The position numbers and the translations under genes are program-made. This document shows positions 16,796 to 58,990 of a DNA stretch of 64,000 nt, in pieces. Below the pieces are notes generated by a model. The model was not told the origin of the DNA and searched no databases. It saw only the letters and a list, made by a program, of their open reading frames with translations. Location: assembly GCF_900605495.1 (NCBI RefSeq), contig NZ_LR027603.1:433867-497866 (forward strand), written 5' to 3'. The stretch's first letter is position 1. Each line of letters opens with the position of its first letter. The stretch comes from Bacilliculturomica massiliensis. Its GTDB lineage: Bacteria > Bacillota > Clostridia > Peptostreptococcales > Anaerovoracaceae.

Positions 16796-16800
16796 GGCAG

Positions 16801-16992
16801 ACAAGCTCGCCGTCCAATGATCCCGCAGCCAGACACGCTCGCCGACCGACGATCCCGCAGCCAGTCAAGCTCACCGTCCAACGGTCCCGCAGCCAGTCAA
16901 GCTCGCCGTCCAATGATCCCGCAGCCAGACACGTTCGCCGACCGACGATCCCACGGGCGGCCGAAGCTGTTGCCCAACAATCCTGCGGGCGG
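16801..16992. repeat. 32-bp GC-rich tandem repeat, six units
   Basis: Units begin at 16801, 16833, 16865, 16897, 16929 and 16961. Units 1 and 4 differ at one or two positions; units 5 and 6 diverge at the end. There are no unique spacers, so it is not a CRISPR array, and 32 is not a multiple of three, so it is unlikely to encode protein. Confidence 0.85.
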
Positions 16993-21192: not shown

Positions 21193-21346
21193 GCCGGAGT
21201 GTCCGGCACAAGACAGGCAGTCAGCCGGAATGTCCGGCACAAGACAGGCAGTCAGCTGGAATGTCCGGCGCCAGCCGGAAGTCGGCCGGAGTGTCCCGCG
21301 CCAGACAGGCAGCCTGCCGGCAGTCTGCACACGGCGGAGGATCGTC
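21193..21346. repeat. 31-bp GC-rich tandem repeat
   Basis: Units begin at 21193, 21224, 21255, 21285 and 21316, with core GCCGGAATGTCCGGC and tail GACAGGCAGTCA. Units 1 and 2 are nearly identical, later ones degenerate. No unique spacers, so not CRISPR. Confidence 0.8.
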
Positions 21347-39646: not shown

Positions 39647-40951
39647 TCAGCTTCCGGCGGCGACCCCGTCGATGACGATCTCCACGAAGCGCCGCAGGAC
39701 CACGGCGGCCTCGGCCCGGGCGGCGGCGTCTTTCGGGGCGAACAGGCGGCCGTCCTCAGGATGGATTCCGCTTTCGGCGGATGGGAGGGTCCCCAGGGGG
39801 ATGCCGCTCATCACGTCCGCCTGCTGCATGGCCTGTACCGCGTCTTTCATGCTGCCGGTGATCTCGTCGTCGTCTGCGAAAACCACCGCTTCACGGACTG
39901 CGGGGAGGGCGTATCCCAGCTTGTCTGCATACCGCTGCATCATGACCGCCATCTCTTCACGGGTCACGGGACGGTCGGGTTCAAAGGTATTGGCGCCGGG
40001 GCCGCTCACAATGCCCTTCGACGACGCCCACTCCACAAAGGAGGCGTAGTAGGCGGTGGCGGCAACGTCGGAAAACCGGCCGGAAGAAGCGTAGTCCGCC
40101 GGGTCGATTCCGGCCAGCCGTCCTAACGCTGTGACGAACATGCCCCGCGAGATGACGGTGTCGGGGCTGAATGTGGTCTCGCCGGTGCCGGAAAACAGGC
40201 CGCGTCTGGCGACAAAATCGATATCCCGCTTTGCCCAGTGAACCGCCGTGTCCGTAAATGCCGGGGCGAGCTTGTAACCCACGCCATAGACGGAAAAATG
40301 ATCGATGAAGCCGACCACGCTGCCGCTGTCGTCGTGCTGAAGGGCGTCTTCTGTTTTTCCGTCGGCAAGATCCGGCCTATAGCCGGAAGGGTAGAGCCAT
40401 TCCGCGCCGCCCGTGCCGTCCGCGTAGACGAGATACAGTCCCTCGACATCTTCCGCGGCGGCGGGGGTGTAGGCAAGGCCCACGGACACGCTGCCCACGT
40501 TGGACAGATAGACCGGCCGGCCGTCTTTCTGGAAGCTGATCTTTAAGTCATAAGCCGGCCGGGAGCCGACAGCGGAAAGGGCGTCCCCGGTCAGATCGGT
40601 GGCTCTGGCGGCAGTGAAAGTCACGTCCCCGCCGGTCTGGCGGGCGATCTCGGCCAGCTGAGCCGGTCCGAATGTCAGATCCGCAACGGATGTATTGATG
40701 GTCATGTACTTCACATTGTTGTTGGGGTCAACAAGCCGGTCAAGGGCCGCCCGCTTGATGGCGATGGAAAAACCGTCGCAGGCCGCTGTTGTGGCCGCAT
40801 CGTACTGCACCGCGATGCCATAATTCTTACGGCCCTTTTGCTCTGCGGCGTTCAGGGCCCTGGTAATGGCCTCCGACGTGCCGCCGTCGTCCGCCGTTCC
40901 CACAGCGGCGCCGTCTTTCACCGTGACGGGCGTTTCGATCACGGCCAGCAC
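39647..40951 (-). CDS. SLH-anchor half of a frame-shifted LRR/SLH surface protein
   Basis: 434 residues in the frame after the break, beginning at a GTG with no ribosome site, so probably not made independently at present. It carries a spacer domain (about 1-215) and three S-layer-homology modules: FTDTAVHWAKRDIDFVARRG, FSDVAATAYYASFVEWASSKG and FADDDEITGSMKDAVQAMQQ, each with a TxPDxxxxR-like part. SLH modules bind pyruvylated wall polymers. Deleting one of the two 40-bp copies at 41001-41080 joins it in frame to the LRR half, giving 1026 residues. Confidence 0.85.
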   Translation of the reverse strand: MLAVIETPVTVKDGAAVGTADDGGTSEAITRALNAAEQKGRKNYGIAVQYDAATTAACDGFSIAIKRAALDRLVDPNNNVKYMTINTSVADLTFGPAQLAEIARQTGGDVTFTAARATDLTGDALSAVGSRPAYDLKISFQKDGRPVYLSNVGSVSVGLAYTPAAAEDVEGLYLVYADGTGGAEWLYPSGYRPDLADGKTEDALQHDDSGSVVGFIDHFSVYGVGYKLAPAFTDTAVHWAKRDIDFVARRGLFSGTGETTFSPDTVISRGMFVTALGRLAGIDPADYASSGRFSDVAATAYYASFVEWASSKGIVSGPGANTFEPDRPVTREEMAVMMQRYADKLGYALPAVREAVVFADDDEITGSMKDAVQAMQQADVMSGIPLGTLPSAESGIHPEDGRLFAPKDAAARAEAAVVLRRFVEIVIDGVAAGS

Positions 40952-42767
40952 AGGGCTGTCCGGCTGGGGCGGCTGCGGGGCCGTGATCGCGATGCGGGAA
41001 CGGCCGCCCCCGGAGCTCGAATGCCCGCCTCCGCCGCTGGCGGCCGCCCCCGGAGCTCGAATGCCCGCCTCCGCCGCTGGGCGCGGACGGGTTTACGGTG
41101 ACGGTGCAGCTCGCTGTTTCGCCTCCTTGCCGGGCGGTGGCGGTGATGATGGCTGTGATGGCCGTGCCTGTGGAAACGGCGGTCACGCTGCCGCTTCCGT
41201 CCACCGTGACCACGCCGGTGTCGCTGCTCTCCCAACTCACGACAGGCACGGCGCCGGTGGGTCTCAGCGTGGCAGTTAGTTTTTGACTTTGACCGGTTTT
41301 CAGCTGCAGCGTGTTCAGGTCAAGGGTCAGGTCGTACTCCACAGTAAGCAGCTCTTCCCAGCCTCCGCTGTCATAGCCCTTCCCGTTTTTGGGGACATAA
41401 AAGGTCAGGCCGGAACTTGTATCCTCGAAAGTGGAGGAAGCGATCGCCGGAGCGGTGGTGGATTCCATAATGATGCGGTCGAGGCTGGTGCAGCCGGAAA
41501 ACGCAGATCCCCCAATTTGAGTCAGGCCGTTGGGCAGCGCCTGCAGGGCGAGGTTCTCGCAGCCGGAAAACGCATATTCTCCGATTTGTTTCAGCCCCTC
41601 CGGCAGCGCCTGCAGGGCGAGGTTCTCGCAGCCGGAAAACGCATATTCTCCGATTTGTTTCAGCCCCTCCGGCAGCGCCTGCAGAGCAAGGTTCTCGCAG
41701 CCGGAAAACGCAGATCCTCCAATTTGAGTCAGGCCGTTGGGCAGCGCCTGCAGGGCGAGGTTCTCGCAGCCGGAAAACGCATATTCTCCGATTTGTTTCA
41801 GCCCCTCCGGCAGCGCCTGCAGAGCAAGGTTCTCGCAGCCGGAAAACGCCGATTCCTCAATTTGAGTCAGGCCGTTGGGCAGCGCCTGCAGGGCGAGGCC
41901 CCTGCAGTTGGAAAACGCGGATTCTCCAATTTGTTTCAGCCCCTCCGGCAGCGCCTGCAGGGCGAGGCTGGTGCAGTTGGAAAACGCATAGCCGTCAATT
42001 TGAGTCAGACCCTCGGGTAGTGCCTGCAAGGCAAGGTTAGGACAGTTGGAAAACGCAGATTCCCCAATTTGAGTCAGGCCGCTGGGCAGCGCCTGCAGGT
42101 CCAGGTTTGAGCAGTGATAAAACGCATACTGCCCAATTTGAGTCAGGCCGTCCGGAAGGGTCAGCGTCTGCAGTTTTGTTATGTTGCCTACCTGAATAAT
42201 CGTATCGTTTCGCATGGTTTTAAGGTTCGCCATGGGGGACAAGTCAAGGGCTGTCAGACTGTCCCAGCCGCTATCCCTGTGAAACCGCTCTAACAGATAT
42301 CTCCAATTTTGTCCTGTGATCTCCACCGCGCTGCCGGTGAGCTCGATGGCGGTGACGGTCATTTTGTCGCCGGGCGGAAGGGCGGCAAGAGCGGTTTCAA
42401 TAGCTGTTTCCATCTCGTCGCCGTCGCCGTTGTCGTTAAAAGTCACTTCCAAAACAACGTCTTGAACGCCTTGCGCGTTCGACGGGACGTTTTCCGCTCC
42501 CATCCGCCTGACGTCCGCGAGGGCGATGGGTCCCGGCGCGGGTCTGGCGTCTTCTTTCTCTCCGCTGTAGATCTGGCAGACAAAGCCGCAGGGCTGACCC
42601 TCGGCCACCATATAGCCGCATTCCGTCGTGTGCGGCCGGCGGTGACCGCGCGGCCCCCCGGCGCCTGACGGCGTGGTTTCCGCATATGCCGCCGAGCTCA
42701 GCTGTCCCAACAGCAGGGCGGCGCACAGCAGCAGCGATAGGCTGCGTTTGTGTGTTCTGTTCTTCAT
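40827..42767 (-). CDS. LRR (BspA-like) half of a frame-shifted surface protein
   Basis: 646 residues as it stands. Signal peptide 1-29 (SLSLLLCAALLLGQLSSAAYA), an unassigned domain to about 200, ten 23-residue leucine-rich repeats of BspA type (LPxGLTQIGxSAFSxCxNLALQA), a bacterial Ig-like (Big2) domain with VSWESSDTGVVTVDGSGSVTA, then a Ser/Gly hinge. After the 40-bp duplication the frame turns into an arginine-rich nonsense tail ending at 40827, without the SLH anchor, so the current product would be released instead of wall-bound. GGAGGGAAAGAGC precedes the start. Probable target of the MalT-like regulator next door. Confidence 0.85.
   Translation of the reverse strand: MKNRTHKRSLSLLLCAALLLGQLSSAAYAETTPSGAGGPRGHRRPHTTECGYMVAEGQPCGFVCQIYSGEKEDARPAPGPIALADVRRMGAENVPSNAQGVQDVVLEVTFNDNGDGDEMETAIETALAALPPGDKMTVTAIELTGSAVEITGQNWRYLLERFHRDSGWDSLTALDLSPMANLKTMRNDTIIQVGNITKLQTLTLPDGLTQIGQYAFYHCSNLDLQALPSGLTQIGESAFSNCPNLALQALPEGLTQIDGYAFSNCTSLALQALPEGLKQIGESAFSNCRGLALQALPNGLTQIEESAFSGCENLALQALPEGLKQIGEYAFSGCENLALQALPNGLTQIGGSAFSGCENLALQALPEGLKQIGEYAFSGCENLALQALPEGLKQIGEYAFSGCENLALQALPNGLTQIGGSAFSGCTSLDRIIMESTTAPAIASSTFEDTSSGLTFYVPKNGKGYDSGGWEELLTVEYDLTLDLNTLQLKTGQSQKLTATLRPTGAVPVVSWESSDTGVVTVDGSGSVTAVSTGTAITAIITATARQGGETASCTVTVNPSAPSGGGGHSSSGGGRQRRRRAFELRGRPFPHRDHGPAAAPAGQPCAGRDRNARHGERRRRCGNGGRRRHVGGHYQGPERRRAKGP
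41001..41080. repeat. Exact 40-bp tandem duplication that breaks the reading frame
   Basis: Bases 41001-41040 and 41041-41080 are identical. Forty is not a multiple of three, so two copies put the LRR and SLH halves out of frame; one copy (or four) restores it. It lies in the Ser/Gly hinge between Ig-like and SLH parts. Confidence 0.95.
41469..42158 (-). repeat. Ten 69-bp leucine-rich repeat units
   Basis: Ten consecutive units of 69 bp, each coding 23 residues, several nearly identical (KQIGEYAFSGCENLALQA occurs three times). Such homogeneity invites recombination that changes repeat number without breaking frame. Confidence 0.9.
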
Positions 42768-43109: not shown

Positions 43110-45701
43110 CTATTCGATCAGTCCCAGCTCCCTGGCCCTGATCACGGCGTCCATGGCGTTGTTCACCTCCAGCTTCCGGTAAGCCGCGGTGAGGTGGCTT
43201 TTGACCGTGGAGAGGGAAAGTCCGGTGCGTTCTGCGATCGCGGTGCCACGATAACCCAGGGACAGCAGCAGCACCATCTGACGCTGCTGACGGGACAGCT
43301 TGACGGGCTTGTCCTTTCGCCGGATATTTGCGGCGACGCCGGCGCGGCCCTTTGAAAACCGGTAGGCGGCCAGCATGATCTCGTTTACGCAGGACAGGGA
43401 CGGGCCGGTCTCCTTCCTTTGGCGTGTCTCATTCCTGTGATCCTGCCTGCTCAGCCTGGCGTACAGGCGCTTCAGCACGGGCAGGACGGCGGCGCCTTCG
43501 TCGGCCACGACGCGTGTGAAGGAATAGGGCTGCAGGATCCCAAGGGCGGTCTCCAGCGTGGAGACCGCTTCTTTTTTTTGCCCCAGAGCCCACTCCAGAA
43601 CGGACTGGAGCACGCAGGCCTCCCCCTCGTCCAGAGGGCGGTTAAATTCCCGGCCGTACCGCCGGAGCATGCCGATGTAGCCCATGGCTTCTTCGGTCCT
43701 GTTCAGGACCAGATAGGCGCGGGCGGTGGAAAAGTGCTGGTAGATGCGGAACAGCTCCACGTGGTCGGTCTCGACCACAAAGTACTGAGCGAGCCAGTCC
43801 CGAGCCGCCGCCCGGTCGCCGTGCCAAAGCCGCCGTCTGACCTGAAAAGCCGCCAGATTGGGTAGGAAAAACTTGGCGGAGGAACGGACAAAATCCTCAA
43901 GGACGCGGCCGGCCGTCTCAGCCTCCTCGAACCGCTCCAGCCGGTACAGGATGGAGATCTGCAGGATGCAGACGCAAATGCGGCCCTCGGGCCTGCTGTC
44001 TCCGTTCAGGAGCTCCAGAGCCCGGGAGTTTTGCAGCAGGGCGCTGTCCAGATGATTCCGCTCGTAATCGAAACAGGCCCAGATGTGGTGCTGCAGGTAG
44101 TTCCATTCCGGTCCGAGAAACAGGGCGAAGGTTTTCGCCACGCCCTGCCGGCTGGCCGGGTCCAGGCTCAGGTCGGAATAGTCCAGATTGCTGCGGTGCA
44201 TGAAGGGAAGATTCTGCGTGAAGGAGGCGATGCTGGTGGCCAGTCCCTCCGCCGTAAACTGATGGATGTAGCGGCCAAATTTACTGAAGTTTTTAATTTT
44301 GTCCAGAATACTGGTGCGGTAGTCCACGCTGTAGGCCAGGATCGCATACTCCACAAATTTGGACTGCGCCAGGGCGATGGAGGGGAGATTTTGATACACG
44401 GCGTCCATGTGGGACTCAAACTCTTCCCGGTGGCTGGTGAGGTAGTGATACCAGGCCGCCGCGATGTGGAGAGGCGGGAATTGGCCGAAAGCCTCGGCGG
44501 GAAAATCGCCGGAAAAAAAGGTGGAGAGAAAGTCGGCGTACTCCGCCACGGCTCCCCGGTTGTTTTCAAAGAGAAACAAATAGAGATATCCGCTGATCCC
44601 CCGGAAATCTCCGCTGGCCGCCCAGAAGCGCAGAGCTTTGGAGTAGTCGCCCTTCGACTTGTAGTAATCGGCTGCCAGCTTGTAAAGTCCGCTGGTATCC
44701 GCCTTGTTTTTTGCGGTCTGAGACCGGAGAAAATCCAGAAACATATGGTGATAGCGGTAAGTATCATCGTGCAGGTTGCTGAGAAAATCGTTAGCGCGGC
44801 TCAGCTCCCGCATGATCGGCAGGGCGTCTTCCTCGCCGGTGAGGAGCCGCGCCAGCTCGGCGTCAAATTCATCGGCCACCGAAGTCTTCAGGCAGAATTC
44901 CCGGATCCGCGGCTCCCAGCGGTTCCAGATGTGGATCTCAAAATAGCGGGCAAAGCCGGAAGCGATGCTTTCTTCCGGGATCCCAGATTTCGCCACGGCG
45001 TTGACGCCGATGGCCCAGCCCCCGGTAACGTTGCAGACGAACCGCGATTCTTCAGCGGTGAGTCTCTGGTTTAGACTGCTGAAGTACTGAAGGATCTCTT
45101 CCTCTGTAAAACGAAGGTTATCCTGGGTGATCACGCTCAGGGCCTCCTCGCGGAAAAGAGACTGAAATTCTCCGGGGATCTCTCCCCGGGAGAGGATCAG
45201 GACCACAAAGGAGCGGGGAAGCCGCCGGAGAATAGCGGGCAGAGACTTGAGGATCTCCCCGTTGTCGATCACGTGCATATCGTCCAGTACCAGAGCGTAA
45301 GAGCCCTTCCCGGCGTAGAGCTCTGAAAGCAGCTGCACCGTGTGCTCTACTGGGACGGAGGAAAAGGCCGGACTGGTGATGATCTTCAGCATATTCTCAT
45401 TCTCCGGACAGACGGAATACAATCCCTTGGAGAGGAGCTTGAAAAAAACAGACGGCGAGTCGTCGTAGCGGTCCAGGCCGATCCACACGCTCCTGCGTCC
45501 GGATCTCTTAAGCCAGAGCTGAGCGGAAACGGTCTTGCCGGAGCCGGAGGGGGCGCCTACAAAGACGAAGCGGTTCTCGGAGGCCCGCTGAAAAACCGCC
45601 ATCAGATTGTGGCGGGGCGCGTAGATATCCGGCAGCGCGGCGGGCGTATATTTTTCATTCAGCAGCCCTTCGATACGGGCGTTGATCCGTTTGTTTGGCA
45701 T
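43110..45701 (-). CDS. MalT-like LuxR-family ATP-dependent transcriptional regulator
   Basis: 863 residues, the size of MalT (about 900). A STAND-type ATPase leads: Walker A GAPSGSGKT (49-57) and Walker B LVLDDMHVID. A long helical TPR-like sensor region follows, then a C-terminal LuxR helix-turn-helix (LSRQQRQMVLLLSLGYRGTAIAERTG with TVKSHLTAAYRKL). MalT-type proteins bind an inducer and ATP, oligomerise and activate at boxes near -35. It lies between the LRR/SLH gene and the giant-protein operon, both with CCTCATAC boxes at the same place. Its inducer is unknown. Confidence 0.9.
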   Translation of the reverse strand: MPNKRINARIEGLLNEKYTPAALPDIYAPRHNLMAVFQRASENRFVFVGAPSGSGKTVSAQLWLKRSGRRSVWIGLDRYDDSPSVFFKLLSKGLYSVCPENENMLKIITSPAFSSVPVEHTVQLLSELYAGKGSYALVLDDMHVIDNGEILKSLPAILRRLPRSFVVLILSRGEIPGEFQSLFREEALSVITQDNLRFTEEEILQYFSSLNQRLTAEESRFVCNVTGGWAIGVNAVAKSGIPEESIASGFARYFEIHIWNRWEPRIREFCLKTSVADEFDAELARLLTGEEDALPIMRELSRANDFLSNLHDDTYRYHHMFLDFLRSQTAKNKADTSGLYKLAADYYKSKGDYSKALRFWAASGDFRGISGYLYLFLFENNRGAVAEYADFLSTFFSGDFPAEAFGQFPPLHIAAAWYHYLTSHREEFESHMDAVYQNLPSIALAQSKFVEYAILAYSVDYRTSILDKIKNFSKFGRYIHQFTAEGLATSIASFTQNLPFMHRSNLDYSDLSLDPASRQGVAKTFALFLGPEWNYLQHHIWACFDYERNHLDSALLQNSRALELLNGDSRPEGRICVCILQISILYRLERFEEAETAGRVLEDFVRSSAKFFLPNLAAFQVRRRLWHGDRAAARDWLAQYFVVETDHVELFRIYQHFSTARAYLVLNRTEEAMGYIGMLRRYGREFNRPLDEGEACVLQSVLEWALGQKKEAVSTLETALGILQPYSFTRVVADEGAAVLPVLKRLYARLSRQDHRNETRQRKETGPSLSCVNEIMLAAYRFSKGRAGVAANIRRKDKPVKLSRQQRQMVLLLSLGYRGTAIAERTGLSLSTVKSHLTAAYRKLEVNNAMDAVIRARELGLIE

Positions 45702-46086: not shown

Positions 46087-49000
46087 ATGAAAAAGCAGAC
46101 GGCATTTGTTATGGTTCTCTTGCTGACCGTCAATCTGGCGTTTTCAGCGCCGGCCGCGCTGACCGCGTACGGGGCGCAGACGGCAGCCGGCGATCTGTAC
46201 GCGAAGCTGAAATTTTTCAGGGCCGACGGCGGAGGCACGGATCCGGAGGAGGAACGTCCCTCCCAGGAGCAGTTCTCCGCCTATAACAACGTGGAAGCTT
46301 TCCGCAGCGCGGGCTTTGTGGAGAGCAAGGGGGGAGGCACGTACATCTACCCCAAAGGGATCGCCAGGGAAACGCCGGTGCTGCGCAGGGCTTTTGAAAA
46401 GCCGGGCAACGTGGAGATGCAGATGGCGGGCGTGGTCACCGCCACGGACACGGTGGGAACCATGAAGGGCGGCAGCTTCTACACGGCAAAGGAAACGCAG
46501 AAGTCGCTGCCGGGCAGAGATGATCAGTTTATCCGTTTCAGTCAGTGGTACGATGTGTCCGATATGGAGGAATGCTCCTGGGCCTACGATATCAGAGATA
46601 TGCCGGTCCTCCCGGATTGGAGCGGGGGCTGGACCGATGTGAGCGACGGGGAGATACCTCAGTGGACCCAGTGCTTTGTCATGCTTCGGGATCTGAAGCC
46701 GCCTCAGGTCTCCTCCGTGGACTATGTCTCCGGGGGAGAACCGCTGGGCGGAGACCTGTATGGCCGGCGATCGAAGATCATCGTGAGAGTGACCTTCGAC
46801 GAGCCTGTAGACCCTGCCGGAGCGGAGAATCTGAGAATGCTGATGGGAGGTAAAGTCCCGCTGAGATTTACTTATCAGGGCATGGTTGGGGACAGCGAGT
46901 TCACACAGTTCGAGTACGAAGTCAGAGTGCCTGACGGCATCGTGGGTTCGGACGTGATCTTTTATAACGCAGACCCCAACGATCCGGCCAAAACCGTCAG
47001 GGATTATTTCGGCCAAAACAGCATGGGAAACAGCAGCAGAAGCTATACCATGAGGGGAGCCGCTTTTGATACGCGCACGCCGGGGATGGATTCTGTAACC
47101 GTTGTGAATCCTCACTATGAGGACATGCCCCGTTACTATATCCAGCAGCTGTTGGGAGAACACCTGCCGGATGAAGATCAGAATGTGTATATCAAGCTCA
47201 ACATAGAGCCTCTCCGCACATATCCGCAGGGGTTTAAGGCGGCGATCTACAAGCCTGCGCCCGACGGCATTCACCGGACAGAGGAGCCGCTGAAGAAGGG
47301 GCTTGTGTTTGAATATGTGGAGGGATCGGAGGGCATCTACAAGCTTGACGCCCGCTATGGTTCCTGGCCGGGTTATACGACAGACCCGGCTCTGCGCAAT
47401 GGGATGATCGATCTGTACTGCGGGGACGATGTGACGTCCACCCACCTGGTCTATGAAAATGGCAGGTCGGTGGAATACTGGGATCTCCGCGGAGCCCTGC
47501 TGACCAGCGCTGCGATCGGAATACATCCGCCGGGTTTCTGGGAGACGACCCCCTTTTCACGAAAAATGTGGTCGGACTACAACAGCTATGAGGAGCTGCA
47601 GAGCTTTCAGACGCGCCAGGGAACCGCGCTTGGGGAGGAATCATTTTACACCAATATAAAAGCGGAGAGGACTGAGATCGGAGGCGTGACCGCGTATGAG
47701 ACAATACTGCCCAGACAGTTCTTCCGTCAGTCTCAGGCGAAAGTTGATATTGTAGCCGAACCGTTGGATAACGACCTGAGATATAAGAATGAAAAGATCC
47801 AAAACGTCTCGGATACAGGATACGCCAGGGGCTGGAAACTTTATGCGGCCGGCGACGACGAGGAAGTGTATCCAACCAGCACGCCGTACTATATGCTGGC
47901 CGGCCAGGATTCCGACAGCAGCAGGCTGAGAGCGATGAAGGGCATGGTGACCATGCTCCTGTCGACGAAGCGCAGCATGTCCACCATTGAGCTGCGCGAT
48001 GGAGAAGGAAACTTGGTGGAGGAGGACGACGTGCGAGGCCGGCTCGATCAGCCGGCCGGATACTGGTATGGCTACAATGTGGCGGCTAATCTGGATGGAG
48101 AGAGCCGATCTGCCATGACCGTAAGCTCGACACAGGACCAGTACATAGACCAGATCGTGAATATCGGCCTGTCGGCCATGGACGCAAACACCAGAAAGAT
48201 CTCCGCCGTCGGGGAGGTGAAGCTGGACAACAAAGCTCCGGAACTCTCCGCCAGCCCCGGTGAAGAGTTCGTCGATTCGGACGGAAGTCTGGAGCAGTCG
48301 GTGAGCTGGATCATCCAGGCGAAGGACGTCAGCCCCGTAATAGCGGTGAAATACCGCTATATTAAAGGCGGTGAGAAGCCGGGCGCAGATGAGGGCTGGC
48401 TGGATGCTCAGGAGGAATCCGACGGGACCTGGACGGCGCCGCTGACGATCCCGGCCAAGAGCACCTTCGTCGGCGCCCTGGAGTACTATGCTGTGGATCA
48501 GTTGGGGAATGACTCCAGGGAACAGGAGCGGAAGCCGCGCAGCCAGGCAGTGACCTACAGAAATCTGGAGTCCGTAAGCGAAGGAGCCATAACAGTAACC
48601 AGGTTTTTCGACGGTCAGGAAACGTCAGGCGACGGACCTGTCACGGAGGTCAATGTGGATTTCGGCGATACGGTGGAAGGCTACGAGGTCTGGTATTGCT
48701 GGACGAATCTCATCCCCGGGGCGAATCTCGATTACGTGAGCCAGCCTTATACGATGCATAGAAGCTCGGATCCGGCTATCGGCAGCAAGGAGGATCAGCT
48801 CAGGTGGAGTCCAATGATCGCTCCAGCCTATCGCTCCACTTATTTCAACCACCCTTACCGGCTCAGCATCATCATCTCCGATCCCGTAAAAGGGACGCCG
48901 TGGGAGCAGCTGGACAGTGTAGTCAGCGCGGAATATACCTTCGATTTTTGTACGGAAAAGCCGGCGGTGGCATGCAGGACGTTAGGGGAACCACAGCGGT

Positions 49001-52000
49001 ATGCGGGCCAGCCGCTGCAGATCGATCTGTCGTCTACAGCCGAGATAACGGGTGGTTACTGGGAGATCCGTAGGCCCGGCGAAATCACCGGCGCGGCTAT
49101 CGGAGAGGGAGCAGCAGGGTTTGAGGCAGGCGATGTTATGAGCGACAGCGCCCTGGAGGAAGGTCATCTGAGCATCGACCCGGCGCTGCTGGGCGGCGAC
49201 GGCCTGACCACGGGAGGCGGACTGAGCTCCGGGTACTACGAGCTGTACGTGGAAGCGGAGAATGCGCTCGGAATGACCTCCGCGGTCTTCGGACCTTTCA
49301 GATACGACAATTCTCAGACGGACTGGAAGCTGAATATAGAAAATATCAGGCTTTCGGGGGACTGCACAGGCGTTTTGACGGGAGGGGACCTGCTGGATGG
49401 GGGAAGTCTTCTCTTTGCGGAAAAGACCAATGGTTCCCTTACGGCGGATCTGGCTTATTCCCTTGAGTTTCACAATTACGATCTCTATCCTGACGGCAGG
49501 TGCACCCAGGTGAGAGCAGCCAGTCTGCTGGGCACGAAAGCCGGAATATACAGACCGGATCTCTCCTACGATGTGGAGTACAACGAGGCTTCCGGCTGCC
49601 TGGAAGGGAACGCCCAGGACGCTCCGATCTGCGGGGTGGGCGACGGGGGTCTGGTCGGCGTGGCGACGGATATGGGCGGTTATATACGGGGCGGCTACAC
49701 GGAGATCCCCGCGGTGAGGGCCGTGCCGGAGTACGGCCTGAATTATGCGCCTCAGCTCATGGAAAAGACCGGCGGCGCGGGGACGGCGGAGTACGAATTC
49801 AGGAAGACAGACCCCTACGGTATAGTGGGAGTCACGACGATAGCGGGCCTGAGCATCACGGAGACTCAGGTCTCCCACGACAACAAGACAATGCCTTACG
49901 ATGTGATCCACTACGATGAAACCAATGGCGTGGACTATCGGAATTATTCGGATTACGTGGAAGTGATCTCCTCCGACGGCTTTGTGGACAGCATAAAGAT
50001 CAGGAAAAACTGCACGGTGACTCTGACGCCCGTCTTTCAGGCCAGGGGGCTGGACCGTGACGTATCGTTCAGAATGGAAGAAAAGAAAATAAAAGTAGAT
50101 TATCTCCCAGAGCAGGCGGCGGACCCGGAGCAGTCGGTGGTGGAAAACGCGGAGGGACCGTACGCCGCCTTCAAGGAGAGCAATCAGAAATGGAAATGGA
50201 CCGAAGAAGACGGACTGACGACCTCAGATCCCGTTTCTAACGTGGGATTTAAGGGCGGATACGCCGGATACGAGAGAAATGGATTCGAGTTCTACTCGTA
50301 TCTGTATCCAGCGGTTGAATTCGCGTTGTCCGCCCCAACCACAGGTCTGAATGGATATGGAGACGTGCCGGACCAGAACGGAGACAGTCAGCTTGGCGCT
50401 GTGGATCTGAAGGCGTTTCCGGTGACCCAGGCCGATGTGGACCGATTCAGGGAGTATCAGAACGACGGACGATTGACTCTGAGCCGCCGGGTACTGGATG
50501 TGACATACCAGGACTTATATTCAGGTACGACGGAGGGCGCTTTCATCCGCGCGATGGAATCCTATTCCGTGGTGCTGAAGGAAGTGCCGGCAGGCGCTGC
50601 TCTCTGGGTCAGCGCGAAGCTTCAGACGCCGGGGGGCGAAGTGTGGGTGCCCATAATCACCTCCTATACGCCGGCAAGCGGCGACTTCAGGCCGTCATGG
50701 GCAGGCGGCGTATTCGTGTCCAGGCCCGGCGAGCTGGGACGATATACGCCTAAGATCTTCTTCGACGAGTCGCAGGCAGCGGGTATCCAGACGGTGAAGG
50801 GAACTATGCCCATGGAACGCACGGTTCTTCCGGTCAGCCGGGAGATGTTGTCAGAGTTCATCGGCGCCGACGTCACCGACGCCGCTTTGTATTTGAGCAG
50901 TATGGAATATGAAGAGCCGGAGCGTTACGATAAAATGATGGCGGTGGTAAAGAACTATGCGATGAACGCTCCCGAGGATCAATTCATTCATGAACAGGAG
51001 CTGTTCTTCACCCCCGGGAAGACATTCGAGCTGCTGTTTACCAATTACAGAGGCAGCAGCCTCGAAGTCATATCCATTGACGAGGCGGATTACGATATCA
51101 CGTATCCGGCTATCTCCACGAAAGTGGAGTATTACACGGACTACGGAGAGAAGACTCTGTGGAACGGAAGCGACTGGATCCCTCTGTATGAGGACGGCGG
51201 CGCGGGGGAGATGAAGGATCTGGCCCTGTCCGTTGAACCCGGCCAGGGGGAAGAAGAGTACTATTATTTTGAGAATGAAGCCAGTCTGATCCCGGTGGTG
51301 GACAGGAGAAATTCCCAGCAAGCCGGCTCTGCCGAGCTTTCGGGAAACGAGCGGCTGGCGGCTCTGGCCGCACAGGGCGTCACGGTCTATAAAAAGCTGC
51401 TGCTGCGGCCCAACGAGGCCAGTCCGGCAGATCCCTTCGGCAGGGATACTGTGATCAAAGCGGTGAACGTCACCCTGGGACAGGAACGGGACATCGCGGT
51501 AAAATTCAAGGTACAGGGCACGAAGCCCAATATCGACGTGCGCCTGCTGACAGGGGGAGCGATCGGATCAGTGTCCACGCCAGGAAGCTGGGCGCTGGCT
51601 GTCTCCGCCTACGACGGAAGGTCCGGTCTCGATCAGCTTCAGGTATGGATCGACGGTGTGGAGCAGACACAGGCGGACGGTCTGGGCGCGTCTTCCTATT
51701 ACAGAGTGTTTTCCGAGGACTCCATCGTGAAGCTCGACGCAAAGGCGGTAAATCGCGCCGGGATCATAGGAGAAGTCAGCGGCGTCTACGGCGGCGATGT
51801 TCCGGACCCGGGGATGCCGGGACCGAAGAAGGGATACGATTACAGGCTGAGCTACCAGTATCAGGATGCGGATGGAAATTGGAAGACGGCGGTTCCAGGC
51901 ATGAACTACAGCGTGGTGTTTGCCAGGATCGAGCTGCTGACCAGCGGCACGGCCATCCGAAACAACGGAGGCTCTCCCGATTACGCCTTCCTGCCGGGCC

Positions 52001-53775
52001 AGAGCGGGACCTTCGTTTTCGAGGTGGAGAAGGATGGAAATGTGACAAACGAGACTACCGGCTACAGCCAGCCCTCGCCGGCGGCCTTCGCTCTGGCGGA
52101 CTGGACGCCGAAAACGCCGGAGGCGGAGCAGGTCACGATCACGCTGGATGTGCTGGCCTCCGATCTTCAGGCTTCCGACATCAGTCTGAAGGACAGCAGG
52201 GGGCAGGCGGTGCCGCTGAAGGATAACGGAATGGTCCCGCTGAACGGGAGATCGTACAGAGAAATGACGGCGGTGACGAAAAAGAACGATATCTATACGT
52301 ATACGGTTACAAAGGGCCAGTATACGGTGCATTCCGGCAGTCTGACCGTGGACAATATCGCAGGGGGCGGTATTGTGGACAAGCCGCTGGAACTGACCTT
52401 TACCTACTCCATCCCGGAGGACACGCTCACCAGAAATCCCGTCATCGTGCGGGCGGTTACGAACCAGACCGCGTCGGTCACGGTGACCTCTTCCACCGGA
52501 GCGGTGAAGCGGCTGGCCGGAAACCGGTTCCAGTTCAGTACCAACGGAACCGTGGACGTGGTGGCTTCTACGGCGGCTTACCGGGTGGAAAAAACGGCGG
52601 CGGTGTCCAATATCGACGCCGCGCCGCCGCAGGTCCAGGCCAACGTCGCCTACACCACGGAATCCGCGCTGGTGACCTTTGAGCCGGCCGGCGGCGACGA
52701 TCCTATGTCGGAGATCACACTGGATTCCTTCCGGCAGCTGGACGCCGGTTTTGTGGGCGGCAGCGCCGAAACAGGGACCACGCTGGACCGGATCCAGGCG
52801 GTCCGCATCCGCAGAAACGGTCTCTACCGTCTCATCCTTTCCGACCTGGTGGGAAACACCCAGACCATTGATCTTGTGATCGACGGTCTGAGCAGCGCGC
52901 TGCCGGAGGTCACCGACGTAGCCTGGCAGTACAATGCATCGGACGCTGTGGTGACGGGAAACAAAGCGCCGGTAAACAGGTACGTAGAAATATTGGAAAA
53001 GGACTATCCGGTCACCAATCAGGATATGGAGCTCACGATCAAGACCAATCTGCCTGTCAGGGAGGTCGGGAAAAAGGGAGCGGACTACGCGGATACCTTC
53101 GTGAAGACGCTGCCTGGCAACGTGACGCAGAACTTCGTATTCGAGGATCAGCGGACCGCCGCCACAAATCTGCTGTTCAAGACCGACGTCATAGATAAGG
53201 GATTCCCGGTGATCGTGTTCAACAATGGGCAGACGCTTGCTTATTTTGAGCAGAATCAGGCGGCTTACGATAAAAACGATCTCTATGATTTTACTGCGGG
53301 CGACTTTAAGGACGGGGCGTATACGGCCATGAAAAAAGAGGACGTCAGGATCGACTTCGGCAGCTTCGATCCCAATGATCTGTCGGCCAACACCTTCGAC
53401 ATGAAAAAGCCCTACACCATCACCTACTCGGCGGTGGACGCCGCCGGGAACGAGACTGCCGTTGCCCGCACCATACGGCTGTTCGGCAAGGACGACCTGT
53501 GCGTGCTGGTAGACGGAAAGCTTCCAGACGGCGACACGGCGGAGAGCTTCGGAGGCCAGATCACCGTCAGCGTGGAAAATTACAGCGGTCAGCTGTTCGC
53601 CTCCATGGCGGCGGGCAAGTACAATGCGGCGGAACTGAAGCGGAGGGGCGTTCCCATGACGCCGGGCCCGGACGGGAAGAGCTTCGTGCAGCAGGTGACT
53701 CCCAGACGGTGGTATACCGTATTGGTGCGCACAGGCACCATGGAGTCCTTTACCGTTAAAATCTGGGTGAACTGA
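46087..53775 (+). CDS. Giant exported surface protein, 2562 residues
   Basis: A single uninterrupted frame. It opens with a signal peptide (KKQTAFVMVLLLTVNLAFSA..., about 2-30, cut near AYGA). The rest is beta-rich with many tryptophan/tyrosine and acidic residues and several Ig-like/Big-type modules, for example around 720 (DNKAPELSASPGEEFVDSDG) and near 2170-2270 (IDAAPPQVQANVAYTTES; LSDLVGNTQTIDLVIDG), and a late one near VDAAGNETAVARTI. No SLH, LPXTG or membrane anchor is visible at the C-terminus. AGGAGCGTGAT precedes the ATG. It is followed after 13 nt by the second giant gene, so the two are probably co-produced and may interact. Function unknown; an adhesin, scaffold or S-layer-associated role is inferred. 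Confidence 0.85.
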   Translation: MKKQTAFVMVLLLTVNLAFSAPAALTAYGAQTAAGDLYAKLKFFRADGGGTDPEEERPSQEQFSAYNNVEAFRSAGFVESKGGGTYIYPKGIARETPVLRRAFEKPGNVEMQMAGVVTATDTVGTMKGGSFYTAKETQKSLPGRDDQFIRFSQWYDVSDMEECSWAYDIRDMPVLPDWSGGWTDVSDGEIPQWTQCFVMLRDLKPPQVSSVDYVSGGEPLGGDLYGRRSKIIVRVTFDEPVDPAGAENLRMLMGGKVPLRFTYQGMVGDSEFTQFEYEVRVPDGIVGSDVIFYNADPNDPAKTVRDYFGQNSMGNSSRSYTMRGAAFDTRTPGMDSVTVVNPHYEDMPRYYIQQLLGEHLPDEDQNVYIKLNIEPLRTYPQGFKAAIYKPAPDGIHRTEEPLKKGLVFEYVEGSEGIYKLDARYGSWPGYTTDPALRNGMIDLYCGDDVTSTHLVYENGRSVEYWDLRGALLTSAAIGIHPPGFWETTPFSRKMWSDYNSYEELQSFQTRQGTALGEESFYTNIKAERTEIGGVTAYETILPRQFFRQSQAKVDIVAEPLDNDLRYKNEKIQNVSDTGYARGWKLYAAGDDEEVYPTSTPYYMLAGQDSDSSRLRAMKGMVTMLLSTKRSMSTIELRDGEGNLVEEDDVRGRLDQPAGYWYGYNVAANLDGESRSAMTVSSTQDQYIDQIVNIGLSAMDANTRKISAVGEVKLDNKAPELSASPGEEFVDSDGSLEQSVSWIIQAKDVSPVIAVKYRYIKGGEKPGADEGWLDAQEESDGTWTAPLTIPAKSTFVGALEYYAVDQLGNDSREQERKPRSQAVTYRNLESVSEGAITVTRFFDGQETSGDGPVTEVNVDFGDTVEGYEVWYCWTNLIPGANLDYVSQPYTMHRSSDPAIGSKEDQLRWSPMIAPAYRSTYFNHPYRLSIIISDPVKGTPWEQLDSVVSAEYTFDFCTEKPAVACRTLGEPQRYAGQPLQIDLSSTAEITGGYWEIRRPGEITGAAIGEGAAGFEAGDVMSDSALEEGHLSIDPALLGGDGLTTGGGLSSGYYELYVEAENALGMTSAVFGPFRYDNSQTDWKLNIENIRLSGDCTGVLTGGDLLDGGSLLFAEKTNGSLTADLAYSLEFHNYDLYPDGRCTQVRAASLLGTKAGIYRPDLSYDVEYNEASGCLEGNAQDAPICGVGDGGLVGVATDMGGYIRGGYTEIPAVRAVPEYGLNYAPQLMEKTGGAGTAEYEFRKTDPYGIVGVTTIAGLSITETQVSHDNKTMPYDVIHYDETNGVDYRNYSDYVEVISSDGFVDSIKIRKNCTVTLTPVFQARGLDRDVSFRMEEKKIKVDYLPEQAADPEQSVVENAEGPYAAFKESNQKWKWTEEDGLTTSDPVSNVGFKGGYAGYERNGFEFYSYLYPAVEFALSAPTTGLNGYGDVPDQNGDSQLGAVDLKAFPVTQADVDRFREYQNDGRLTLSRRVLDVTYQDLYSGTTEGAFIRAMESYSVVLKEVPAGAALWVSAKLQTPGGEVWVPIITSYTPASGDFRPSWAGGVFVSRPGELGRYTPKIFFDESQAAGIQTVKGTMPMERTVLPVSREMLSEFIGADVTDAALYLSSMEYEEPERYDKMMAVVKNYAMNAPEDQFIHEQELFFTPGKTFELLFTNYRGSSLEVISIDEADYDITYPAISTKVEYYTDYGEKTLWNGSDWIPLYEDGGAGEMKDLALSVEPGQGEEEYYYFENEASLIPVVDRRNSQQAGSAELSGNERLAALAAQGVTVYKKLLLRPNEASPADPFGRDTVIKAVNVTLGQERDIAVKFKVQGTKPNIDVRLLTGGAIGSVSTPGSWALAVSAYDGRSGLDQLQVWIDGVEQTQADGLGASSYYRVFSEDSIVKLDAKAVNRAGIIGEVSGVYGGDVPDPGMPGPKKGYDYRLSYQYQDADGNWKTAVPGMNYSVVFARIELLTSGTAIRNNGGSPDYAFLPGQSGTFVFEVEKDGNVTNETTGYSQPSPAAFALADWTPKTPEAEQVTITLDVLASDLQASDISLKDSRGQAVPLKDNGMVPLNGRSYREMTAVTKKNDIYTYTVTKGQYTVHSGSLTVDNIAGGGIVDKPLELTFTYSIPEDTLTRNPVIVRAVTNQTASVTVTSSTGAVKRLAGNRFQFSTNGTVDVVASTAAYRVEKTAAVSNIDAAPPQVQANVAYTTESALVTFEPAGGDDPMSEITLDSFRQLDAGFVGGSAETGTTLDRIQAVRIRRNGLYRLILSDLVGNTQTIDLVIDGLSSALPEVTDVAWQYNASDAVVTGNKAPVNRYVEILEKDYPVTNQDMELTIKTNLPVREVGKKGADYADTFVKTLPGNVTQNFVFEDQRTAATNLLFKTDVIDKGFPVIVFNNGQTLAYFEQNQAAYDKNDLYDFTAGDFKDGAYTAMKKEDVRIDFGSFDPNDLSANTFDMKKPYTITYSAVDAAGNETAVARTIRLFGKDDLCVLVDGKLPDGDTAESFGGQITVSVENYSGQLFASMAAGKYNAAELKRRGVPMTPGPDGKSFVQQVTPRRWYTVLVRTGTMESFTVKIWVN

Positions 53776-53788
53776 AAGGAGGCATATG

Positions 53789-56700
53789 ATGAAACGAATG
53801 ATCGCAGGTCTTCTCGCCCTGATCCTGGTCCTGGGACCGGCGCCGGCCGGCGTATCTGCGGCGGAGGACACGGAGCTGACGCTGAGCAACACCTATATGA
53901 AATATACCCTCAACACGAAAACAGGGGCGTTCATGGTCGGCACGCTGGAAGGACATCCGCAGAAGGCGAAGGACAATAATATGCCCCTGCTCTATGACGG
54001 AGGCAGTCAGACCAGCTACACTACAGTCCGCATCGACGGGGAGGACTACGTGTTCGGGAAGGATTACGGATTTCTCGGACTGGACAGTCAGCTCTCCCAG
54101 CCCGTGCAGGATCCGGGCAATCAGACGTTGAGCATCAGCTGGACCATAAAGGGGATCCAGATCACCCAGCTGGCGGAGCTGAAGAGCGACGCGGTGAACC
54201 CGCTGAGCGGCAATGTAGGCCTGCGTTATACGGTCAAAAACGTCGGCGCCGCCGGGAACCCGCAGGTGGGGATCCGGGTGCTTCTGGATAATGCGCTGGG
54301 CGAAAACGACGCGCCTTTTGTCATCGCCGAGGGCGGTATGCCGATGTTCTATGAGAGCGATATGGACGACGCAGGCGGAACGGCGGTGCCGACTCAGCTG
54401 CGATTCATGGACGACTACGGCAATCCCAACGTGATGGCCTACGCCATTCTCAACAGCTGGTCCGGCGCGGAGACGCCGGACCGGGCGGTGGTGGGACACT
54501 GGTGGAATCTGGCCAACACGAAGTGGGACTACACGGCAGACCGCAGCATGCGCTTCACCTCCGTTTCCAACAGCCTGAATACGGCGGATACTGCATCGCT
54601 GTATTACTTCAGTCCGAAGAGCTGCGCCCAGGGGTCGGAGCGCACGCTGGAGCTGATGTACGGAGTGGGAGATTTTTCCTATCAGAAGACGGAGAACGGC
54701 CCTAACGTTTCCATGAGCTTCAGCAATGCGCCGGAGCTAAACGAGACCGGAGACGGTTATAAGAACAACGGGGAGTTTACGCTGTCCGTCAAGATCGACA
54801 ACACCATCGACAACGCAGAGACGCACAACAACTCCGTCGTTATGCTGAACTTTGAGGACAATCTGGAGGTGATCCAAAAGCCCTCCGGCTGCGACGCGTC
54901 AGGCTCTGTGCTGGGCATCGGCATCATCAGCCCCGGCGATATCCTGACCTACGAGTGGACCTTCCGGGCGAAGGAGCAGACCTACTATATTTCCTCGGAA
55001 TTCGTCGCGTCTTTGAGCACCAGTCTGTCGGAGGTACTCTACCGGGATTACGTGCTGCTTCCCTCCGTGGAGGGGAACCTGCCGGATTTCACCGTAGACA
55101 GTATGGAGCCGGGGGAGGTCTATTTCCGCGGCACGAAGATGGTGACGCTGAAGGGAAGCTTCAGCGAGGCCACCCTGAAAAATACATACGGGACCCAGTG
55201 GAACGCTTACTTTGAAAACGTGGACACCGGGGCGGTCTATCAGTGCGTCAAGTCGGACGTGAGCTTCATCGGAAAGAACTCCGACACGCTGGTGGTCCGG
55301 TATTCCGGAGACATGGCCATGGGGACCTACCGGCTGGTATTCCGTTTTACCGGGGGACTGGCGGGCCTGTTCGACAACGGCAGCGGAAGGATCATTCCGG
55401 ACGGCACGCTGCTGGTATCCAACAACCCGGAGCTGGTGACCAAGACATACGGCGTTCTTACCGTCATGAGGACGGGGAACCGGGGAACCTCTTACGTCAT
55501 CGTCCCCTTTGAGACGGAGGAGGAATTTGAACAGTACGTGGAGGACCGGGGACTGCGGGGCATGGACTGTCCCTACGAAGAGATCATGCTTGAGCTCCGG
55601 GGAGCCGTGAAGTATTACGACGACGGCTCCGATCAGTTCTATTACGCCGATCCCAACGACGATCAGGTGACCATCAACAACATCCTCACCTACGGCAACA
55701 CAGACGAGCTGCTGTATCTCACCGAAATAAAGGATAACGGAAGCGTGAAGGGGATCCGCGTCCACGGCGGCGGAGATCTGGGCGTGGTAGGCGGCATGAC
55801 CTTCTTCAAGTGGGGCTTTGAGATCCAGTTTGACAATGGATTTTACTATACCCACAACAGAGAAAAGCTGGAGAATGTGGATAATCCCCAAAAGGAGCTG
55901 CTGACCAGAGATATCACCATAGACGCCACCGGAGGCATGGGCATACTGCAGAAGGTGGCGGGTTTCCTGTTCCAGCTCAACTACGGCACGCTGACCGAGG
56001 ACTGGTCTTCACTGGGCGGAGCTTACGATCCCGAGGAGAGCAAGGGCTACGCCGTGAATTTTGGCGGGAAAGTGGCTCTCAATTTCTTCGAGATCCCCGG
56101 TCTGCCTGGGGGCGGCGACGAGGAAGAGGGCGGCGGCTCCGGCAGTTCCGGCGGCACGGAGGGATCGGACGCCAAAGTGCCCGTGCCCACGCCCGAGGCC
56201 GATTCCGGCAATAAACCGGAGGAGGGTGATAAATCGGGCGGCGGCAACCCGCTGAACAGTCTGGCGGGTCTTGGGGCGTCGGTGGCCATCGACGACATTA
56301 TGTTCGGACAGAAAAAGGACGGCAGCGTGGGATTTTTGGGCATCAACACCACGGTGGAAGCCAGCCTGCCGGAAGCCTTTTTCGGCGATATGGTGAAGGC
56401 GGGGCCCAGCATGACGCTGACCATCAACACCATTGATAACGTCTACTCGATCCAGGGAGGCGTGGGCCTGAAGGTCGTCGAGTGTTCCGCGACCCTCAGC
56501 ATCAAGATGCTGCCGGTCTCGGAGGATCAGAAGGTAAAGATCCCCGTTCCTGACTCCATGGAATTCGGCCTGGGAGGCCTGCAGTCAGTGCGGATCATCC
56601 CGCCGGTCATGTCGCTGAACGCTTTGGAAGGCGGCATCAGCGATATCTACGACACACTCAGCGGGAACTTCGAGGGGCTGCCCCCGGTGACCATCAAACT

Positions 56701-58990
56701 GGGCGTGGGGGTCGATCTCTTTGAAGTCCTGCGCGGGGGAGGCGAGATCCGCATATCCCCCAGAAGCTTTTACGGGGAAGCGACGCTGGGGATGGCCAAT
56801 ATCCCATCTGTCACGCTGAAGGGAATCTTTGAGGCCCAGTGGGCCAGCCCCTTCTACGCCACGCTCACGGGCCAGGTGGAGATCCTCTCCAGCGCTATCG
56901 TGGGCGGCGTCACCGTGCATATGGGGGACGGCGAGCTGAGGGGCGTTCTCTTCGGAAATGTGAACGTGCCCGACATCATACCGATCATGGGAGGCATGCA
57001 GATCGCCAACGCGGAAGGTTACCTGTCCACCAGATCGGTGGGAGCCAGCGCCAAGTTTATGGGCGACTATGTGAATGTGGTCTACTACTGGGGCAGCGAC
57101 GGCGTGGACGTGAGCTCCGGAAGCGAACCGATGTACGCGCCCGGTTCCATGCTGGACAGCGTTCTGTCCGCAAGGGCGGAAGGGGCTGAGTTCGATACGG
57201 AGGGCCGGGTGCTCTACGGCTCCAACATCAGTCCGCTGGCAGTCAATGAGAACGGAGCGCCGGTATTCGGAAGCGGACGTTCCGGAAGTCGCAGCCCGGC
57301 TGTCTTCGGCGATGAAACAGAAAAATCCCTGAGCTTTACGGTGGACGACGCCATGGCCGCGGCCTCCACGCTGTTTATCGAGATCCCCTACGCCGCCGCG
57401 CCGGCCATCGGAGACGTCAAGCTGACGGCGGACGGCGCCGAAGTGCCGCTCACACAGGCGGATCTAACGTCCGGCGAAGGCAACTTCATGATAAACTCCG
57501 GGAAGCAGAGACTGCTGCTGTCCGTCCACAGTGATAAGTACAGCGAAGGAACGGTCATAAAAGTCGGTTTCACCCCTTCCTCCGCGGTGGACACCGAAAA
57601 CTACGCCGTATACGGCGCGGGGGCGGTGGCCAGACTGACAAGCGCCCAGACCTCGTACAGCGGCAGCGGCGGGAGCTTCCGCTACACGACTGCCACGGAG
57701 GGTCTGAAGGATCATTCACAGCTGCAGGTCTATCTGACCGAGAATCCGGACGCGCTGGAGACGCTTGAGGCCCAGGGCAGGCAGGCGTACAGTGCAGATC
57801 CGGAGAGGAAAAACCAGCTGGGCACGCCGGTGAACAGCGCCCCTATCACAGGAAGCGGGATATCCGGCGGAACGCTGCCGATCCCCGACACTCTGGCCAC
57901 TGGGACGTATTACGCCGTCTACTCGCTGATGACGGAGGGGGAGACCGCGTTCACCTGTGTGGACAAGGCCAACCCCATCAGCTGGACAAACGCGGAGCAG
58001 CCCTCCCCGCTGAGCAGCGCTGTGCTGATCCCGGCGGGGGACGGAGCCTTCCGCGTCAGCATGGGCGGCATCGAGAGGGCGAAGGCGGAAGGAGTCACCG
58101 ATCTGTTCGTGGAGCTGAAGGACGGTTCCGGTCATCCGGTGCCGGGTTATGAGATGCTTCGGTCCGGCATTGAAGGCGCGGACAATATCTACGTGGGCGG
58201 CGGCAAAACCGTTTCGGGCTTCCTGGCCGCCGGGACAAGCGCCGGCGTCCCGGAAACAAGCGGCTCTGCACTGGGAACCAGCGGCAGCGCTCTGGAGGCC
58301 GGCGGCAGCGCCGTCCGGGATACCTACGCGATCCGGCCGCTCACACCGGGGGAGAGCTATCACGTCACCGTGACTCCTGCAAAGTTTGCGCCTCAGACCG
58401 GCGGCGCGTACGATGAGAATCGGGTGTTCTACGGCTCTTCCACCGACTCCGCCCCTGTGGAACTGCCGGCGGTCAACACGCCGAAGCTCATCGGGATGCA
58501 GACCGACGCGCTGGAAGAGAAAAACGGAAGCAGATGGCTGAAGGGAGATCGTTTTACGGCGAAATATACCTTTGATCAGGATGTGCGGCTCTCGCTGACC
58601 GTCAACGGTTCGGTCTACAGCTATCCCGACGAGTATAAGAGCGTCTGGGAGGTGTCCGTGCCCCTGGAGGACGGCGATCACTCTGTGGTGTACACGGCCA
58701 GAAACCGGGGCGGAGATACGGCGCGCAGCGATCTGACGAAGAAGGAGGGCGTGTTTGCATTCACGAAAGATACCACGGCGCCCATCCTGTTCACTGAGGG
58801 CGGCAGCATCATCACCGCCTCCGCCGTGACCGGCGGGCTGAAGATCTCCGGCGTCAGCGAGAGGGCGGCATCTATCGTGATCCGCCCGGCTGAGGGCGCG
58901 GCCTCCAATATGGCGCTGTCAAGCGCGGCGGCGGCCGGCAGTGCAGTCTCCAACGCGGCGGCGGCCCAGCACGGCTGGCGGCCGACCTGA
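53789..58990 (+). CDS. Second giant exported protein, truncated before its SLH anchor
   Basis: 1733 residues from the ATG at 53789 (six bases after AGGAGG; ATG 53786 is also possible). Signal peptide about 1-25 ending GVSAAEDT. A beta-rich N-terminal part, a Gly/Ser/Glu linker near 775-818, glycine-rich beta-solenoid-like sequence (about 840-1150) and Ig-like repeats follow. The frame ends with ...QHGWRPT in an alanine-rich hinge, while LAADLKALTDKLGQENIIK in another frame leads directly into three SLH modules. Adding one base near 58955-58980 would give about 2082 residues. Either a real truncation, an ON/OFF switch or a sequence error. Confidence 0.8.
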   Translation: MKRMIAGLLALILVLGPAPAGVSAAEDTELTLSNTYMKYTLNTKTGAFMVGTLEGHPQKAKDNNMPLLYDGGSQTSYTTVRIDGEDYVFGKDYGFLGLDSQLSQPVQDPGNQTLSISWTIKGIQITQLAELKSDAVNPLSGNVGLRYTVKNVGAAGNPQVGIRVLLDNALGENDAPFVIAEGGMPMFYESDMDDAGGTAVPTQLRFMDDYGNPNVMAYAILNSWSGAETPDRAVVGHWWNLANTKWDYTADRSMRFTSVSNSLNTADTASLYYFSPKSCAQGSERTLELMYGVGDFSYQKTENGPNVSMSFSNAPELNETGDGYKNNGEFTLSVKIDNTIDNAETHNNSVVMLNFEDNLEVIQKPSGCDASGSVLGIGIISPGDILTYEWTFRAKEQTYYISSEFVASLSTSLSEVLYRDYVLLPSVEGNLPDFTVDSMEPGEVYFRGTKMVTLKGSFSEATLKNTYGTQWNAYFENVDTGAVYQCVKSDVSFIGKNSDTLVVRYSGDMAMGTYRLVFRFTGGLAGLFDNGSGRIIPDGTLLVSNNPELVTKTYGVLTVMRTGNRGTSYVIVPFETEEEFEQYVEDRGLRGMDCPYEEIMLELRGAVKYYDDGSDQFYYADPNDDQVTINNILTYGNTDELLYLTEIKDNGSVKGIRVHGGGDLGVVGGMTFFKWGFEIQFDNGFYYTHNREKLENVDNPQKELLTRDITIDATGGMGILQKVAGFLFQLNYGTLTEDWSSLGGAYDPEESKGYAVNFGGKVALNFFEIPGLPGGGDEEEGGGSGSSGGTEGSDAKVPVPTPEADSGNKPEEGDKSGGGNPLNSLAGLGASVAIDDIMFGQKKDGSVGFLGINTTVEASLPEAFFGDMVKAGPSMTLTINTIDNVYSIQGGVGLKVVECSATLSIKMLPVSEDQKVKIPVPDSMEFGLGGLQSVRIIPPVMSLNALEGGISDIYDTLSGNFEGLPPVTIKLGVGVDLFEVLRGGGEIRISPRSFYGEATLGMANIPSVTLKGIFEAQWASPFYATLTGQVEILSSAIVGGVTVHMGDGELRGVLFGNVNVPDIIPIMGGMQIANAEGYLSTRSVGASAKFMGDYVNVVYYWGSDGVDVSSGSEPMYAPGSMLDSVLSARAEGAEFDTEGRVLYGSNISPLAVNENGAPVFGSGRSGSRSPAVFGDETEKSLSFTVDDAMAAASTLFIEIPYAAAPAIGDVKLTADGAEVPLTQADLTSGEGNFMINSGKQRLLLSVHSDKYSEGTVIKVGFTPSSAVDTENYAVYGAGAVARLTSAQTSYSGSGGSFRYTTATEGLKDHSQLQVYLTENPDALETLEAQGRQAYSADPERKNQLGTPVNSAPITGSGISGGTLPIPDTLATGTYYAVYSLMTEGETAFTCVDKANPISWTNAEQPSPLSSAVLIPAGDGAFRVSMGGIERAKAEGVTDLFVELKDGSGHPVPGYEMLRSGIEGADNIYVGGGKTVSGFLAAGTSAGVPETSGSALGTSGSALEAGGSAVRDTYAIRPLTPGESYHVTVTPAKFAPQTGGAYDENRVFYGSSTDSAPVELPAVNTPKLIGMQTDALEEKNGSRWLKGDRFTAKYTFDQDVRLSLTVNGSVYSYPDEYKSVWEVSVPLEDGDHSVVYTARNRGGDTARSDLTKKEGVFAFTKDTTAPILFTEGGSIITASAVTGGLKISGVSERAASIVIRPAEGAASNMALSSAAAAGSAVSNAAAAQHGWRPT
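58951..58990 (+). other. Frame break in the alanine-rich hinge
   Basis: The SLH frame is open from 58894 and the upstream frame stops at 58988-58990, so the break lies between. CGCGGCGGCGGCC occurs twice, about 30 bp apart (from 58924 and 58954), beside the likely site. Confidence 0.6.

Follow-up and report, generated by a model that had tools for sequence, protein, structure and literature searches.

A frame-breaking 40-bp tandem duplication at the hinge of an LRR/Ig/SLH protein gene in Bacilliculturomica massiliensis as a candidate assembly join error

The split gene and its hinge repeat

The window analysed here, a 64,000-nucleotide stretch of contig NZ_LR027603.1 from B. massiliensis, carries on its minus strand an LRR_5/Big_2/SLH gene whose domains are all recognized by Pfam but are spread over two reading frames (Table 1). 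The first frame opens with a signal-like stretch, as judged by eye, followed by the LRR_5 array, the Big_2 domain, a Gly/Ser hinge and an Arg-rich tail that is out of frame. The second begins after a stop at 41093-41095 and ends at 39647, holding the hinge, a middle part and the SLH domains, and the two frames overlap by about 265 nt. No convincing start codon could be assigned to the SLH half itself; five GTG codons are present in the part scanned, with no clear ribosome-binding site by eye. In a GC3 frame plot, high G+C at the third codon position marks the LRR frame up to the repeat and the SLH frame after it, showing that the coding frame does change there.

Table 1. Features of the split gene, in window coordinates.
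Feature	Position	Strand	Basis and remarks
LRR/Big_2 frame	40827..42767	-	646 residues; ORF and translation; LRR_5 and Big_2 by Pfam
LRR array, 69-bp units (23 residues)	41490..42151	-	TRF; LRR_5
Big_2 (Ig-like) domain, residues 482-556	41100..41324	-	Pfam
First 40-bp copy in reading order	41041..41080	-	Hinge of the LRR/Big_2 frame; TRF and repeat search
Second 40-bp copy	41001..41040	-	Beyond it the LRR frame no longer matches that of the SLH half; TRF and repeat search
Out-of-frame Arg-rich tail and stop	40827..41000	-	Translation, stop position
SLH frame, stop to stop, 481 residues	39647..41092	-	Stop positions; GC3 frame plot
SLH region, residues 259-456 of P0002	39674..40267	-	Pfam SLH, E 7.8e-26, 2 stretches; matches to relatives' SLH proteins

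The repeat occupies the Gly/Ser hinge (41001-41080, minus strand), where TRF reports a period of 40, 2.0 copies and a 100% match, and a second repeat search agrees. A preliminary description had placed two exact 40-bp copies at the hinge of a protein of this architecture, with the two-copy frame stopping at 40827, and the repeat searches, the Pfam domains and the ORF translation (646 residues) all bear this out. The duplication is blunt, its match being continued by the bases of neither flank, and chance is excluded as the origin of an exact tandem copy of 40 bases. As 40 is not a multiple of three, the LRR and SLH halves fall into different frames. By arithmetic from the stop positions, two copies end the first frame at 40827 and three at 40939, so that the SLH frame is kept with one or four copies and lost with two or three. 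The one-copy form of 1026 residues proposed earlier is correct as arithmetic, 3121 - 40 giving 3081 nt, or 1026 codons and a stop. Two traits of known variable genes are present: a non-triplet unit inside a coding frame, as at phase-variable loci, and a frame-shifting exact tandem duplication inside an ORF, as in pneumococcal genes. Reversion of tandem repeats by loss of one copy is plausible in general.

The close relative P0003 and homologues in other genomes

The close relative P0003 is an unbroken protein of 933 residues with the same parts in one frame and a single hinge unit, which confirms the earlier expectation that the single-copy gene is whole; between these two sequences, the hinge unit occurs twice here and once there. 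The P0003 cluster comprises five member sequences and one contig, a member count which is no proof that all five span the hinge, and the truncated two-copy protein is the sole member of its cluster, on a contig of 2,062,642 bases that matches the window's own contig in length; no other record of it was found. Identity to P0003 is 440 of 470 aligned residues on the LRR side and 449 of 463 residues on the hinge-SLH side. Decay of the SLH half had been named beforehand as the sign of a fixed loss; it was not seen, and given this identity and the clean open frame, the SLH half has not decayed behind the break. P0003 has the shorter LRR array, that of the window being longer by about four 23-residue units (93 gap columns in the alignment), so the number of in-frame LRR units varies in this gene as well. 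The order LRR_5, Big_2, hinge and SLH half is shared with P0003, P0005, P0010, P0018 and others; the four named are single proteins, whereas the gene studied here is split at the hinge.

Further homologues are more distant. Of the matches listed at E <= 1e-60 from 349 genomes of the family, those outside the own genome have at most 44% identity, and a scan of genome contigs gave two distant loci (34% and 28%). Overlapping samples of 391 genomes of the class and 393 of the order gave matches with E <= 1e-45 at 38 places spread over 21 other genomes. Of these places, 36 lie in open frames of at least 969 residues, a length that would take in the hinge, although for one of them the listed match contains a stop. 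Of the remaining two, L213 has a run of N inside the hinge and L218 has a frame that breaks just past it, and hinges in such homologues may be hard to assemble. At the protein level, a hinge block was located by a search expression in 37 of the 113 proteins given, P0003 among them, and none of the 37 carries tandem units at the hinge. With homologues in long frames and no repeat tract at the 37 located hinges, no conserved switch is seen.

When the SLH half was used as a query, the best identity among the best 120 of 148 proteins was 69%, and consequently no near-identical orphan SLH half is found among the matches listed. In the same best 120, 73 proteins begin either past the hinge or less than 60 residues ahead of it, in a search that was filtered to 255-812 residues, a filter which favours short pieces and may admit contig ends. 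Such orphan halves were not counted as a sign of recurrent switching, as 36 of the 38 places at the DNA level are in long frames; the orphan-half result nevertheless leans toward a switch and could not be fully explained away. P0127, P0132, P0133, P0134 and P0184, from other species, are SLH halves with a Met start at or just past the hinge and are perhaps fragments.

Similar tandem duplications elsewhere in the genome

Tandem duplications were surveyed in the window and 80 further stretches, together 1,657,778 bases or about 37% of the 4,516,356 of the genome, a total that includes twice the roughly 6.2 kb shared by the window with L063 and L064. Once rows of N, compound units (multiples of a shorter unit) and periods under 20 had been removed, 17 exact tandems with a period of 20-300 were found. 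Five of the 17 are blunt, with 0 or 1 extra base: the hinge repeat (40 bp) and those in L084 (23 bp), L112 (28 bp), L074 (43 bp) and L125 (30 bp). Their G+C is 0.75-0.87 against 0.555 in the sample; bluntness was adopted as a grouping after the data had been seen, which makes this a post hoc contrast, and a small one. The combination seen at the hinge, namely an exact, blunt, two-copy, GC-rich and frame-blind tandem, recurs elsewhere in this genome.

Three of the five blunt tandems, those at the hinge, in L084 and in L112, split genes. In L084 (10548-10593; C20:350548-350593), the blunt exact 23-bp tandem divides the gene of a secreted InlB-repeat protein, both pieces of which align to a paralog in L083 whose frame is continuous. 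The 28-bp tandem of L112 (7023-7079; C21:1007023-1007079; 2.04 copies) splits the gene of a PucR-type regulator; by Pfam, HTH_30 lies in a different frame from Diacid_rec and GGDEF_2, which share one. The 30-bp tandem of L125 keeps the frame. The 43-bp tandem of L074, considered as a further gene breaker, was not found to interrupt any gene; it sits downstream of a molybdopterin-oxidoreductase-type gene and is flanked by two opposite-strand frames lacking a Pfam match. The other 12 tandems have at least 2 extra bases, and nine of them have a period that is a multiple of 3, counting periods alone; the other three are a 32-bp tandem that precedes the domain in an EamA-type transporter frame and two 44-bp tandems. 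Control stretches from four relatives (800,000 bases), which are GC-poor (0.281-0.396) and not GC-matched, held six exact tandems and no frame break. No essential gene was found split in the roughly 37% of the genome that was scanned. A hairpin as the cause of the duplications was rejected: single-stranded DNA folds were no better than shuffles at the hinge (z 0.06 and -0.16) and in L112 (0.35), L084 standing at -2.53.

A second SLH gene in L084 (5470-7243) was also considered as a piece split from the 1219-residue frame upstream of it, and was dismissed on account of its own start and signal-like stretch; the upstream frame ends in a dockerin match. L075 holds an SLH-containing open frame from 15943 whose start lacks a clear signal-like stretch, and no tandem duplication was found at the start of that frame.

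Origin of the second copy

The breaks ignore frame and function, which points to either an assembly join error or a recent spontaneous duplication. The reading put forward here, at a rough probability of 0.5, is that the second 40-bp copy would be an assembly join error rather than an evolved on/off switch. Two overlapping contig ends may have been placed in tandem and not merged, in which case the living cell probably has one copy and makes an intact LRR/Ig/SLH protein bound to the wall. Such a slip would fall in the very GC-rich pocket of the hinge, a setting in which both coverage and assembly are presumably often weak. Unmerged contig ends fit best with the indifference to frame and function, the GC-rich pockets, the blunt exact joins and the absence of any sign of age. 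The single hinge unit and single frame of P0003 favour this explanation, as do the undecayed SLH half behind the break and the record of the two-copy product from this contig only. Support also comes from the N run in the hinge of the L213 homologue, from the gene splitting by three of the five GC-rich blunt tandems, including that in the PucR-type regulator, and from runs of 130 and 1 N in the own genome sequence, which fit a scaffolded draft and may not be gaps. Counted against an assembly slip is that the three split genes are of no obviously essential kind, as would be expected of natural losses.

False tandem copies have a precedent in the first genome of Vibrio fischeri ES114, in which, in the part of the report dealing with them, 14 loci were affected and contig ends were held responsible (PMC2330054). 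As described there, extra sequence lay beside its own copy, ORFs were interrupted and the duplicates were missing in a conspecific strain; the duplicate studied here is likewise missing from the close relative P0003. The same section of that report gives artefacts of 318-1264 bp that were disproved by PCR (PMC2330054), whereas the tandems here span 23-43 bp and come from assembled sequence. The five blunt tandems, three of which split genes, are candidate false joins in the present assembly.

In the main alternative, put forward tentatively, the second copy is real and arose in this strain by a recent, spontaneous duplication within the GC-rich hinge. The cell would then make a truncated, unanchored LRR/Ig protein from an allele that could revert by losing one copy, with no evolved switching. 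Identical copies and an intact SLH half are what a young event would show, P0003 is without the second copy, and the split genes of L084 and L112 could be further young events. The pneumococcal capsule genes offer a parallel in the spontaneous sequence duplications of Waite (2001, 2003), cited in PMC4022640 and PMC4243769; in the passages of these papers that concern them, an exact tandem copy inside the reading frame stops expression and is reversible. Reversion was observed in that system (PMC4022640, PMC4243769, same passages), whereas the present case is one sequence, and of a gene for an SLH-anchored surface protein. Against a recent duplication, three frame-breaking blunt events in about 37% of the genome seem many for natural events, though the controls are not GC-matched, and the joins lack microhomology beyond 1 base.

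The preliminary description had proposed that gain and loss of the unit would toggle the protein between a wall-bound and a released form, and such a phase switch now appears improbable. The unit is suitably placed, being no multiple of 3 and lying between a ligand-type part and an anchor, and P0003 shows a single copy to be in frame. There are, however, only two copies, repeated units are absent from the 37 located hinge blocks, 36 of the 38 homologous places are in open frames of at least 969 residues, and the fold of the unit (z 0.06) is no better than those of shuffles. The PucR-type regulator bears the same signature and is split in like manner, as is the secreted protein, and the two-copy product comes from this contig only. 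Translational phase variation, as set out in the relevant part of PMC4235727, shares a non-triplet unit in the coding frame with one state in three in frame; the tracts treated there consist of many short units that vary among isolates, whereas two long units, absent in the relatives examined, are present here. The caveat attached to the original proposal, which named an assembly error or a fixed mutation, is a better fit than the switch.

It is similarly doubtful that a frame-blind duplication process in GC-rich pockets reversibly flips several genes, converting the wall-bound LRR/SLH protein to a released form with an Arg-rich tail and toggling the PucR-type regulator and the second secreted protein, such that a clone would always be of mixed surface types. 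A programmed +1 frameshift by the ribosome at the hinge, rejoining the halves of the two-copy gene, is geometrically possible given the frame overlap of about 265 nt, but is highly implausible, with no recognized +1 shift site identified by eye (folds were run on DNA only) and no need of a shift in relatives.

Implications and neighbouring genes

If the second copy is an assembly artefact, the split gene and perhaps two others in this assembly would be mistaken for broken genes, and a search for two-copy tandems that are exact, blunt and GC-rich and change the frame would provide a cheap screen for such errors. Taken as given, the sequence encodes an open frame of 646 residues with LRR and Ig parts that ends in an Arg-rich tail and lacks the SLH anchor. 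If the duplication is real, this product would be exported without the anchor, and its release from the wall is likely for that reason. This would amount to a simple and probably reversible shedding of a wall-bound surface protein, of the kind known from pneumococcal capsule genes; among the papers listed by the literature searches, none was seen to describe this for an SLH-anchored protein.

Adjoining the split gene on the same strand is a gene for a MalT-type LuxR-family regulator (43110-45701). Beyond it lie frames of 2562 and 1734 residues (46087-53775 and 53786-58990) with no Pfam match above the cut-off, followed by a 333-residue SLH protein (59032-60033). The window further contains two imperfect tandem arrays detected by TRF, one with a 32-bp unit in 4.8 copies (16798-16952) and one with a 31-bp unit in 4.2 copies (21193-21320).
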